64,000 nt of DNA from Niastella populi (GTDB taxonomy: Bacteria > Bacteroidota > Bacteroidia > Chitinophagales > Chitinophagaceae), in the NCBI RefSeq assembly GCF_002078015.1, contig NZ_LWBP01000024.1, positions 1-64,000 of the forward strand. The letters are read 5' to 3'. The notes below the pieces were generated by a model. That model was not told the origin of the DNA. It saw only the letters and a program-made list of their open reading frames with translations, and did not search any database. The position numbers were made by a program, and so were the translations under genes. Below are positions 34,255 to 37,764 of this stretch, one piece after another; the first letter of the stretch is position 1; every line of letters starts with the position of its first letter.

Positions 34255-35052
34255 CTAAGAGAACAGGTTTTTTTGCTCCGTACTTTCATCAACGCCCAGT
34301 GGCGGCAGATTTGGCCAGGTGAACGGTGCTGTTTTATCCTGATTATCAGGGCGGGGTTTGGTAGAGCGAATGGTAAATACAGGCCAGTAATCGAGTGTTT
34401 CCGAAGGCATTTCAAAATCAAGAACCTGTTGTATATCTTCATCTGTAAGGCCGGGCTGCAGCCATCGCATCTCCAGTTCTTTCGGCAAAAACATCGGCAT
34501 GCGGAAAACATTGGGGCCGCCATTGTGAATTTGCTTCATAACGCTATTGGCAGAACGCGTGATAAGTGTAAAGGTACCTTTTATTTCGCCGGTCTCCACA
34601 TCGGGCAGGGGAGAATAATGGTATAAACCGGGGATGCAGAACATGGGCCGGTCTTTCAGCCGTATGAAATACGGAACTTTATTTTTCCAGCCTTTTATTT
34701 CGCGGTGCTCATAGATACCTGTTACGGGTATCAGACATCTTTTTGAACGGATCCTTCTCCAGAACGATTTTTTGTCATTGATGATCTTCTCGCTTTGTGC
34801 ATTGCACATGTATTGCCGGCTTTGTTTTACTTTCTCCGGCGTATTCATGTAATCGGCAATAACGCCCCATTCAAAGGATTTTAGCTTGTAAGTATCATCT
34901 TCAAAAATGATCACCGGGTATTTCCGGTACGCCTGTGCCATTACGTGAAGCGTAAGATCGAAATCTATCGGCAACTGGGCGTCAACCACCAGGTCGGGCA
35001 GGTAATCGGTTATCAACTGAACGTTCGATGAAAAAGAAATATCGTAACACAT
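34255..35052 (-). CDS. SOS response-associated (SRAP/YedK/HMCES) protein
   Basis: 265 aa. Cys2 directly after the initiator Met (MCYDISF) is the residue that links to abasic sites. Other family motifs are NAQSEKI, the SRAP-typical RCLIPVTGIYEH and LITRSANSVMKQIHN followed by RMPMFLP. SRAP proteins form a stable crosslink with abasic sites in single-stranded DNA and protect them. Last gene of the umuD'-umuC operon, 3 bp after the 163-aa gene. Confidence 0.93.
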   Translation of the reverse strand: MCYDISFSSNVQLITDYLPDLVVDAQLPIDFDLTLHVMAQAYRKYPVIIFEDDTYKLKSFEWGVIADYMNTPEKVKQSRQYMCNAQSEKIINDKKSFWRRIRSKRCLIPVTGIYEHREIKGWKNKVPYFIRLKDRPMFCIPGLYHYSPLPDVETGEIKGTFTLITRSANSVMKQIHNGGPNVFRMPMFLPKELEMRWLQPGLTDEDIQQVLDFEMPSETLDYWPVFTIRSTKPRPDNQDKTAPFTWPNLPPLGVDESTEQKNLFS

Positions 35053-35055
35053 GCA

Positions 35056-35547
35056 TCAAAAATTTTCAATGTCTGCAAGCGGTAATTTCACTTCGTGGAT
35101 CCCGTACTTCAAGGTAATGAAAAGTTCGCCAAACTGAACAAAAAGATCGGCCTTCACGCCGTCCTGCCTGGCGGGCGTCCACTTTAATTTTTGATCGATG
35201 TAGTGGCGGATCTTTGCAGCAACGGGCGCTGTTGGTTTCCATGCCTGCTGTACTATGGGGCTGTACACTTTAAAACCTTCGGGCTGGCCTGCAGCAATAA
35301 ATAATTTGCGGTAATGCGCTTCCTCGGCAATGTTGTATAAAAACCGGTTAGAATCGTTTTCGAGCGTATCGTAATGGGTTTTTGCGCGGCTGTAATCGGT
35401 ATAGTGGGTAAATAAAAAAGCGGCTTTGTTGAGCGGGTCCAGTTGATTCTTTCCCCGTTGGTATGTCTGGCGCACAAAAAAATGATTACCCGCTTTTATA
35501 AGCGACTCCAGCAAACGGGTTGTAAGCAAAACAAACGGGTTGTGCAT
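35056..35547 (-). CDS. uncharacterised protein of the SOS-mutagenesis operon, 163 aa
   Basis: No known domain recognised. The N-terminus is helical and basic (LLTTRLLESLIKAGNHFFVRQTYQRGK), the middle is rich in Tyr and His, and the C-terminus has a beta-hairpin-like LFVQFGELFITLKYGIHEVKLPL. Spacing of 3 bp to umuC and 3 bp to the SRAP gene shows translational linkage. A role with the translesion polymerase or in DNA repair is inferred from context only. Confidence 0.75.
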   Translation of the reverse strand: MHNPFVLLTTRLLESLIKAGNHFFVRQTYQRGKNQLDPLNKAAFLFTHYTDYSRAKTHYDTLENDSNRFLYNIAEEAHYRKLFIAAGQPEGFKVYSPIVQQAWKPTAPVAAKIRHYIDQKLKWTPARQDGVKADLFVQFGELFITLKYGIHEVKLPLADIENF

Positions 35548-35550
35548 GGC

Positions 35551-36822
35551 TCAGATGTTTATCGTTAGCACTTCCTCTATACGGGTGGTATAACAGGGCG
35601 ATAATTTCAACTGGCGCAATTTCCATCGCGTGCCAAATCCCTGCAGGGCAAACCGTAATGCATTTTTCCCAAACGATCTGTTCACCGTGTCCACTACCTG
35701 CATCAGCTGCGAATTCCGTGCCCTGTTTTCCGTATCGAACATATTGTATTGTATCTTTTCGGCCGGCACCAGTTCCATGGCGGTGCAACCGGTTTTGTTG
35801 TAATTATAACCCGGCCGGTAAATGGTTTCAAAGCCCTGCCGGGCCTGCCGTATCAGTTCGTTGGTGCTGTTGGTTGCTTCGGGCAGCTGAATGGTAAGCG
35901 AACGAAAATACTGCGGCTCGTTGCTGCGGTGCGCATTGGTTTGCACAAAGATCTGGATGGCATTTGTAGCCAGCTGCTCACTGCGCAGCTTAGCCGCAAC
36001 CATAGCGGTAAAATTGGCCAGGGCTTCCATCACTTCATTTTTGTCGCTGAGCACTTTACCAAACCCGCGGGCAACGCACACCATTTTCTTTTTGGCCGGC
36101 ATTTCTTCGAACGGAATGCATGAAATACCTTTCAGCTCATTGTACATGCGCTGCCCCACTACCGAAAGGTTCTTTCTTATCCATTCTTCCGGCGCCCGCG
36201 AAACATCCCAGGCCGTTACAAAACCGTTGCGCGTGAGCAGTTTCGTATATTGGCTGCCGATACCCCAGATGTCGTTCACCGCCGTATTTTGCAAAGCGAA
36301 CTGCATTTTTTCCTCGGTGTCGATGCAATACACGCCCGCCTGTTTATTTCTTTTCTTCACCAGCCTGTTGGCCATTTTGGCCAGTGTTTTCGACGGGGCA
36401 ATACCTATGGAAACCGGGATGCCCACGTTTTGCATTATCATATTCCTGATGGTATGGGCGTAACCGGTTACATAGTGGTGCCTGAAAGAAGTGAGATCGA
36501 GGAAGGCTTCATCGATGGAATATACTTCCAGCCGGTCGGTATATTGCGACAGGGTGGTCATTACCCTGTCGCTCAGATCGCCATACAAGGTATAATTGGA
36601 AGAAAAAACCGATACGTTATGTTGTTGTAACAGGGATTCAATAAGAAAGGAGGGCGCGCCCATTTCAATTCCCAGCGCCCTGGCCTCGTCGCTGCGGGCA
36701 ATTACACAACCATCGTTGTTGCTGAGCACCACAATGGGCTTGTTTTGCAGCCCGGGCTGAAAAAGCCGTTCGCACGATGCATAGAAATTATTACAATCAA
36801 CCAACGCGATCATTTTTTTCAT
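35551..36822 (-). CDS. umuC: Y-family DNA polymerase V catalytic subunit UmuC
   Basis: 423 aa, same length as E. coli UmuC. The palm/finger motifs DCNNFYASCERLFQP and YSIDEAFLDL carry the catalytic acidic residues. SIGIAPSKTLAKMANRLVKK and the helix-hairpin segment WGIGSQYTKLLTRNG follow. The C-terminal tail RWKLRQLKLSPCYTTRIEEVL is the UmuC-type end. It performs error-prone synthesis past lesions together with UmuD' and RecA. The start overlaps the end of umuD' by 26 bp; the second Met (36813) is an alternative. Confidence 0.94.
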   Translation of the reverse strand: MKKMIALVDCNNFYASCERLFQPGLQNKPIVVLSNNDGCVIARSDEARALGIEMGAPSFLIESLLQQHNVSVFSSNYTLYGDLSDRVMTTLSQYTDRLEVYSIDEAFLDLTSFRHHYVTGYAHTIRNMIMQNVGIPVSIGIAPSKTLAKMANRLVKKRNKQAGVYCIDTEEKMQFALQNTAVNDIWGIGSQYTKLLTRNGFVTAWDVSRAPEEWIRKNLSVVGQRMYNELKGISCIPFEEMPAKKKMVCVARGFGKVLSDKNEVMEALANFTAMVAAKLRSEQLATNAIQIFVQTNAHRSNEPQYFRSLTIQLPEATNSTNELIRQARQGFETIYRPGYNYNKTGCTAMELVPAEKIQYNMFDTENRARNSQLMQVVDTVNRSFGKNALRFALQGFGTRWKLRQLKLSPCYTTRIEEVLTINI

Positions 36823-37174
36823 ATTTAAACTTTACTACCACTGCGGTTACCACACCCCATACCTGCATGTTCATTTCTTCTGTGACTACCAATGGTTTGT
36901 ACATGGGGTTCTCGGGGTGCAGCACCAGGCTTTTCCGCGTTTGAACAATACGGCGGACGGTAAATTCGCCATTTACCACCGCCAGCACGATCATGCCGCT
37001 GACGGGTTTTACCGACCGGTCAACCACCAGCAGCGAATCGTGTGGTATGCAGGCATTGATCATACTATCGCCCGAAACCCTGAAATAAAAAGTGGCGGTA
37101 GGGTGTTGCACCAGGTATTGCGACAATTCAATTACATCCTCCTGGTAATCTTTGGCCGGAGACGGAAAACCCAT
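36797..37174 (-). CDS. umuD: UmuD'-like subunit of DNA polymerase V (pre-truncated, catalytic Lys replaced)
   Basis: 125 aa of the LexA/UmuD S24 fold. The sequence starts MGFPSPAKDY, colinear with E. coli UmuD from Gly25, the first residue after the Cys24-Gly25 self-cleavage site. The inhibitory arm of 24 residues is therefore absent. The upstream frame has no other ATG, GTG or TTG before a stop at 37205-37207. Ser37 (SGDSM) aligns with catalytic Ser60. The residue aligned with Lys97 is Arg74 (EFTVRRIV instead of EFTVKKLQ), with no gap in between. Thus self-cleavage is both unnecessary and probably impossible. It should dimerise and activate UmuC directly. Overlaps umuC; two palindromic operators lie upstream. 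Confidence 0.88.
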   Translation of the reverse strand: MGFPSPAKDYQEDVIELSQYLVQHPTATFYFRVSGDSMINACIPHDSLLVVDRSVKPVSGMIVLAVVNGEFTVRRIVQTRKSLVLHPENPMYKPLVVTEEMNMQVWGVVTAVVVKFKYEKNDRVG

Positions 37175-37196: not shown

Positions 37197-37204
37197 CAAA
37201 AATA
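37197..37204 (-). promoter_or_regulatory. -7 promoter element of the umuD' operon
   Basis: On the minus strand TATTTTTG is an exact TAnnTTTG match 23 bp before the umuD' start. It overlaps the first operator by two bases. Confidence 0.55.
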
Positions 37205-37242
37205 CTAAGATATTTAGTAGTTTTGTACTAATATATTTAGTG
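37203..37242. promoter_or_regulatory. two 17-bp palindromic operators (TACTAA-N5-TTAGTA)
   Basis: Site 1, 37203-37219: TACTAA gatat TTAGTA, a perfect palindrome. Site 2, 37226-37242: TACTAA tatat TTAGTG, one mismatch. Centres are 23 bp apart, about two helical turns. They lie over and just upstream of the umuD' -7 element, where a LexA-like or XRE-type repressor would block transcription. The identity of the repressor is inference. Confidence 0.7.
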
Positions 37243-37479: not shown

Positions 37480-37764
37480 ATGGAAAGAGATCCACGATAT
37501 AAAGCAGTTAAAATATTGATCGAAGGGCGACATATAACCGAATTCAAGGAAATCTTTACCCATGTTCCGAAAACTATAATGGCTCACGACCTGGGGACCA
37601 ACAATAACCGGATGACGCGTTTGATCGAGCACGTTGAGCAGTTTACGTTAGCAGAGTTATACAAGATCAGCAATCTGTTGGATGTGGATTATAAGACGAT
37701 CTTTTCGCTTGCGCATACACAACATTTCGGTAATGACAAAAGGGGCAGAAAAGTAAAACCTTGA
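37480..37764 (+). CDS. small XRE-like helix-turn-helix protein, 94 aa
   Basis: The core DPRYKAVKILIEGRHITEFKEIF followed by PKTIMAHDLGTNNNRMTRLI resembles the lambda-repressor-like fold of short Bacteroidota regulators that have no extra domain. FTLAELYKISNLLDVDYKTIFSLA gives helices 4-5. It is divergent from the umuD' operon and may bind the operators there, though the distance (about 240 bp) leaves this open. The end is basic (KRGRKVKP). Confidence 0.7.
   Translation: MERDPRYKAVKILIEGRHITEFKEIFTHVPKTIMAHDLGTNNNRMTRLIEHVEQFTLAELYKISNLLDVDYKTIFSLAHTQHFGNDKRGRKVKP

Follow-up and report, generated by a model that had tools for sequence, protein, structure and literature searches.

A chromosomal umuC-linked gene of Niastella populi that probably encodes UmuD' directly behind a pair of LexA-type operators

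The DNA analysed here, referred to as the window, is a stretch of 64,000 nt from the start of contig NZ_LWBP01000024.1 of Niastella populi. It contains the genes umuD', umuC, orf163 and SRAP (SOS response associated peptidase), in this order and all in the same direction, with two operator matches upstream of umuD'. The features are as follows.

36797..37174, minus strand: umuD' gene, 125 aa; NF007621 match at 144.8 bits, S37 kept and R74 in place of Lys97
37169..37174, minus strand: Met-Gly start codons of umuD', from the translation and the alignment with UmuD'
37064..37066, minus strand: S37 codon (equivalent to Ser60), AGT, from the PDB alignment and codon table
36953..36955, minus strand: R74 codon (equivalent to Lys97), CGC, from the PDB alignment and codon table
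35551..36822, minus strand: umuC, 423 aa, with IMS, IMS_C and DUF4113 domains
35056..35547, minus strand: orf163, a conserved unknown protein of the umuDC operons of this group
34255..35052, minus strand: SRAP gene (PF02586, 113.1 bits)
37197..37204, minus strand: TATTTTTG, a possible Bacteroidota -7 promoter element, by inferred function
37205..37217, minus strand: proximal operator, CTAA-N5-TTAG (motif of PMC8565304), of which the last three bases are an in-frame TAG
37228..37240, minus strand: distal operator, CTAA-N5-TTAG (motif match), 23 bp from the proximal operator

The product translated from the minus strand of 36797-37174 opens with MGFPSPAKDY. Its best phmmer matches in the PDB are E. 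coli UmuD' and UmuD (E about 1e-27), and residues 2-113 align with UmuD' (1umu) at E 1.5e-27. The alignment is gapless from Gly2, which corresponds to Gly25, to R74, the sole gap falling after I76, and it pairs S37 with Ser60 and R74 with Lys97, as the original prediction had proposed. The first codon is the position directly after the E. coli UmuD cut site, so the proposed start was borne out by both translation and alignment. An upstream stop had been said to rule out an arm and this also holds: there is no in-frame ATG, GTG or TTG between the umuD' ATG and the in-frame TAG at 37205-37207, which is the 11th codon upstream and leaves 10 open codons before the ATG. Peptidase_S24 is the only domain match of the product in a profile search. 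The protein scores above the curated cut-off of 110 bits for NF007621 (UmuD, Pol V autoproteolytic subunit); the arm with a C/A-G cut site that is typical of this family is absent, and the Ser-Lys dyad is incomplete, with Ser present and Lys replaced by Arg. Methionine aminopeptidase normally removes Met before Gly or Ala, and the processed N-terminus would be Gly-Phe-Pro-Ser-Pro, the same as in cleaved UmuD'. Taken together, the data make it very probable that 36797-37174 codes for UmuD' itself, the form in which the DNA polymerase V subunit is activated.

The umuC gene overlaps the 3' end of umuD' by 26 nt. It is the only close UmuC match in the genome of N. populi; the two others (31% and 26% identical) look dinB-like. 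Matches to orf163 and SRAP are often found downstream of umuC in relatives, armed and armless alike, suggesting that the operon probably came first and that the arm was lost later. The orf163 product matches no family in Pfam or NCBIfam, and its confidently predicted fold (pLDDT 90.5) has no clear PDB match; it is possibly an unknown partner of Pol V. At two further loci in the family (L018 and L006) a UmuD-like gene is followed by orf163 without a umuC match between them. Upstream of umuD' there is a divergent 94-aa ORF (37480-37764), which is 90-94% identical in all seven Niastella/Longitalea relatives and has only a sub-threshold match to HTH_26.

We take TAnnTTTG to be the Bacteroidota -7 promoter element, and TATTTTTG, which abuts the proximal operator 22 nt before the ATG and is exact in seven of eight species, may act as one. 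Two operators upstream had been predicted and both are present, at 37205-37217 and 37228-37240. They match the published Bacteroidetes LexA box: the available text of PMC8565304 describes CTAA-N5-TTAG as the non-canonical box, with binding by the regulator of P. actiniarum demonstrated in a gel shift, and predicts large Chitinophagaceae regulons under non-canonical LexA. The window has two matches to this motif against a mean of 0.72 in shuffled sequences, but two or more were found in 15 of 100 shuffles and so the box count in the window alone is not significant. There is no genome-wide enrichment either, with 50 sites in 8.6 Mb versus 104 for the reversed control pattern. Among these 50 sites, however, there are only two pairs spaced 23 bp apart, at the umuD' locus and at C145:15681-15716. 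It is the pairing of the boxes, rather than their number, that goes beyond chance. The second pair precedes a dnaE2-like, orf184, dinB-like operon (L354:1195-5368; names from ORF reading), which is probably a second SOS-controlled mutasome.

The N. populi genome also encodes a LexA candidate, a protein with HTH_3 and Peptidase_S24 domains in a profile search (L357:874-1623). KAAAGYL, which includes an A-G site, GDSM and the Lys can be seen by eye, and the cut site and Ser-Lys dyad look intact. There is a CTAA-N5-TTAG box (C191:49626-49638) 4-16 nt before its ATG. These domains, motifs and box assign the protein to the HTH plus S24 type of LexA, as a candidate orthologue of the published regulator.

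The MGFPSPAKD start, the Arg, the overlapping umuC and both operators are common to seven named Niastella/Longitalea genomes. The boxes lie at -69/-46 in all seven, and the estimated umuC offset is -23 in six and -10 in one. The room of 11 codons upstream of the ATG recurs in all eight species. Across the 28 pairs formed by the seven relatives and the window, dN (0.02-0.07) is far below dS (0.30-1.04), showing that umuD' is maintained by purifying selection. This is a conserved gene and not an error. The nearest proteins beyond Niastella/Longitalea are armed, apparently cleavable UmuD proteins from umuDC operons of Chitinophagaceae (L005, which is the same as L204, and L205 to L208). They are 60-63% identical to the window protein and their genes carry a LexA box; umuC, orf163 and SRAP follow in L204 and L206 to L208, as in the window, and orf163 and SRAP were not seen in L205, where the contig piece is short. 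Unlike the window protein, L204 to L208 have a 28-aa arm with an A-G cut site and keep both Ser and Lys.

In order to place the gene among its relatives, we read all 136 UmuD-like matches (E 1e-10) found in 120 of 195 genomes of the family. Ten are clearly armless. Two others are short but N-terminally diverged, and both have Arg: L028, which starts three residues before the aligned position, and L380, classed as short, which starts one to four before it (earliest ATG four residues out). Neither has a umuC match in its flanks and both stand outside the ten, although L028 is counted as armless in the arm-change and codon/dN-dS analyses. A further 27 matches are armed with Ser and Lys. One (L021) has a 10-residue arm, Ser and Arg, and one (L378) has an arm, an A-G site, Cys at the Ser position, and Arg. 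The remaining 95 are armed proteins of the N-A-T-G-F kind, all with Arg, including one cut by a contig end (L382) that was put in this class by its C-terminal half. L040 is counted as armed, its start being missing because the contig ends; L096 is counted as armless because a box lies between the gene and an earlier ATG that would give an arm of 28; and L379 contains a run of N.

Position 97 is Lys in 27 of the 136 matches and Arg in 109. All ten clear armless proteins have Arg, and Lys is found in 27 of 29 armed umuDC-type relatives. There is a umuC within 400 nt at nine of the ten armless loci. The Ser is lost in five (L014, L018, L022, L096 and L108) and retained in the window clade. Six of the ten begin with Met-Gly, three with Met-Ala and one with Met-Leu; as Met is normally removed before Gly or Ala, the mature N-terminus would in most cases coincide with the one that the cut creates in E. 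coli. A similar split is seen at named loci (80 kept of 114 relatives), with Arg in all ten armless and Lys in 68 of 70 armed proteins; ten of these 80 loci share a UmuD core with family loci, and Longitalea arenae and Longitalea luteola are linked to family loci by identical cores. One of the scan patterns contains the Ser60 position and all omit position 97, so of these two residues Lys alone has a count that escapes this bias. In the wider phylum we sampled 48 loci, made up of the 28 best new matches and 20 picked, several of them for low scores or short frames. Among the matches listed, none of the 48 scored as armless. An arm together with Ser and Lys is present in 41, and the other seven (L144 to L150) are armed with Arg and with Ala or Gly at the Ser60 position (Gly in L144, L145 and L149). 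L124 and L141 of this sample have no usual start codon and are counted as armed; in L141 a stop lies 10 codons before, with arm-like residues after that stop.

The suggestion that loss of the lysine fits a lost need to cleave survives only in part. The contrast between the armless proteins and their armed umuDC-type relatives agrees with it. However, the commonest class in the family, with 95 members, keeps its arm and has Arg as well, so Lys can be lost where the arm is not, and Arg does not single out armless proteins. The proposed check, an alignment of start position against the Lys/Arg site, gave Arg in every clear armless protein but also in the commoner armed class. Additionally, wherever Lys is replaced in the family Arg takes its place, in most cases with a CGN codon, although the Arg codons vary. 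This looks like maintenance and not decay, and Arg is perhaps kept for structure. Supported branches provide only two independent pairs of arm and Lys states. Arm loss and Arg go together consistently, but two pairs are too few for significance in a sign test.

The armed Arg class of the family has an arm of about 28 residues. The Ser is absent in 88 of the 94 members that show the site (Ala in 86 and Thr in two), there is a umuC within 400 nt in 66 of 95 (50/72 plus 16/23), and the genes usually carry a LexA box. By sequence, these are apparently uncleavable UmuD proteins. We found no published account of such a dyad-less armed class in the open-licence literature. One member, L002 (L355:4172-4726, C224), is in the N. 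populi genome and has a LexA box. Its umuC is missing, whereas Longitalea arenae has a umuC between the same neighbours (L356:3092-4375), and in the UmuD tree L002 is on a longer branch than its two kin.

Of the family loci, only the first 111 were used for trees of UmuD and UmuC. The UmuD tree (121 columns, dyad columns excluded) places the window trio in a supported group that also contains two armed loci, L005 and L006, and the unusual L028, whereas L008/L010/L014/L022 lie elsewhere; it requires at the fewest six changes of the arm, L028 counted. A UmuC tree of 126 rows, made by a quick method, retains just five members of the armed Arg class and omits duplicates and rows lacking umuC (such as L006, L018 and L028); it has at least five changes of arm state, and in it L022 does not group with L008/L010/L014. 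For AU tests the rows of this tree were reduced to 80 (46 further rows left out). Two groupings were rejected, one uniting every armless row (p 7e-13) and one joining Niastella/Longitalea to L008/L010/L014 (p 6e-4). These tests, in which the groups were chosen after the tree had been seen, thus reject the view that armlessness arose only once.

The window locus resembles E. coli umuD in having an adjoining umuC and a damage-response operator upstream. It differs in that E. coli makes UmuD and then cuts it at Cys24-Gly25, whereas here there is no arm and Lys97 is Arg. A closer precedent is found in phages. The genes for P1 HumD, N15 gp26 and their HK140 and D6 counterparts, among others, start directly at MGFPSPA (in HK639 the annotated start is three codons upstream), and the available part of PMC7092418 presents P1 HumD as a short form of UmuD that is already activated. 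This trait, a short form encoded directly, is present in the window protein, which scores 85 bits with the HumD profile NF051876, below its curated cut-off of 120. In contrast with the window protein, P1 HumD, N15 gp26, HK140 and D6 keep Lys. The phage genes stand alone, with no umuC match in the fetched 2-kb flanks, whereas umuD' of the window overlaps umuC. UmuDAb of Acinetobacter is, in the available text of PMC8565304, an S24 relative of UmuD that acts in SOS control; it has an extra N-terminal DNA-binding part, and the window protein begins at the S24 linker without such a part. We found no published chromosomal umuC-linked gene encoding UmuD' in the open-licence literature. Directly encoded UmuD' is known from phage P1, and its linkage to umuC on a chromosome appears to be a new variation on this theme.

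With no usual start for an arm, the N-terminus of UmuD' and LexA boxes upstream, the best reading of the locus is the one originally predicted, in which self-cleavage would be bypassed and control would be transcriptional. UmuD' would dimerise and bind UmuC as soon as both were made, the RecA-driven self-cleavage step being skipped. Repression by the non-canonical LexA would be the main damage-sensing gate, moving the RecA-cleaved switch to LexA alone, and RecA activation of the assembled polymerase would be a second gate. We hold this whole proposal, drawn from sequence comparison, to be likely. In the available text of PMC4552617, E. coli umuD(K97A) leaves UmuC at the membrane with Pol V mutagenesis strongly inhibited, and UmuC is most soluble with UmuD'; direct synthesis of UmuD' should therefore free UmuC at once. 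The UmuD arm carries a ClpX signal, according to the available part of PMC5342242, so an armless dimer may be long-lived. The further claim that polymerase V would be active once made is too strong. E. coli UmuD'2C still requires RecA and ATP, as far as the available text of PMC6511836 goes, and by analogy the RecA step probably remains here.

The best-surviving alternative, which we regard as unlikely though compatible with direct synthesis of UmuD', is that an armed, catalytically dead UmuD encoded elsewhere pairs with the armless UmuD' and restrains it. The UmuD/UmuD' heterodimer would then serve as the switch in place of cleavage, and might do so by handing UmuD' over to a protease. In E. 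coli, UmuD' is brought to ClpXP by the arm of the UmuD with which it is paired (available part of PMC5342242), and N. populi itself encodes an armed dead UmuD with a LexA box (L002). Armed dead UmuD was found in 7 of 10 genomes with an armless UmuD' versus 5 of 23 with a cleavable UmuD (Fisher p 0.016, uncorrected for kinship), but it is absent from three of the ten, and L002, with no umuC neighbour and a longer branch than its two kin, resembles a decaying gene. An extended version, to which we give equally little weight, is that Niastella-type bacteria split the E. coli UmuD states between two genes, one for a permanently short UmuD' with umuC and one for a permanently armed UmuD that, with Ala for Ser and Arg for Lys, cannot be cut. 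The genome would then lack any UmuD capable of cleavage, and Pol V would be tuned by the ratio of the two, both under LexA.

It is improbable that the Arg-bearing S24 site has kept weak protease activity and cleaves a partner's arm in trans, so that some processing remains. Ser37 is kept in the window clade, and a LexA Lys to Arg mutant reportedly cuts slowly at high pH. E. coli UmuD arms can also be cut in trans within dimers (available part of PMC5342242). However, the Ser too is lost at five of the ten clear armless loci, and among matches at E 1e-10 none of the ten armless genomes has an armed UmuD with an intact dyad. That the start is misread, with an arm supplied from an unusual start or a frameshift, or that the gene is a remnant, is very hard to credit. 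Beyond the 10 open codons before the ATG, nothing was found in its favour. Against it, the in-frame stop belongs to an operator, the 11-codon room is the same in all eight species, the upstream sequence is taken up with both operators and a possible promoter element, and umuD' is under purifying selection.

In the usual teaching, UmuD cleavage acts as a timer that delays mutagenic repair, and directly expressed umuD' is the construct that geneticists used to bypass it. Nature appears to have made the same timer-bypassing construct, more than once, in chromosomal umuDC operons. These bacteria offer a natural setting for studying the purpose of cleavage, whether activation by RecA is enough on its own and whether LexA can bear the full burden of control. 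The commoner armed dyad-less class raises the converse question of the role of a UmuD that cannot be cleaved.

Two minor observations concern the sequences compared. Armed UmuD proteins with Cys for the catalytic Ser and Arg or Ala for the Lys are found on three viral contigs (L281, L282 and L288) and at L378. Additionally, L243, which is titled Williamsia sp., has a UmuD identical to that of the Chitinophagaceae locus L018, and its title looks wrong.
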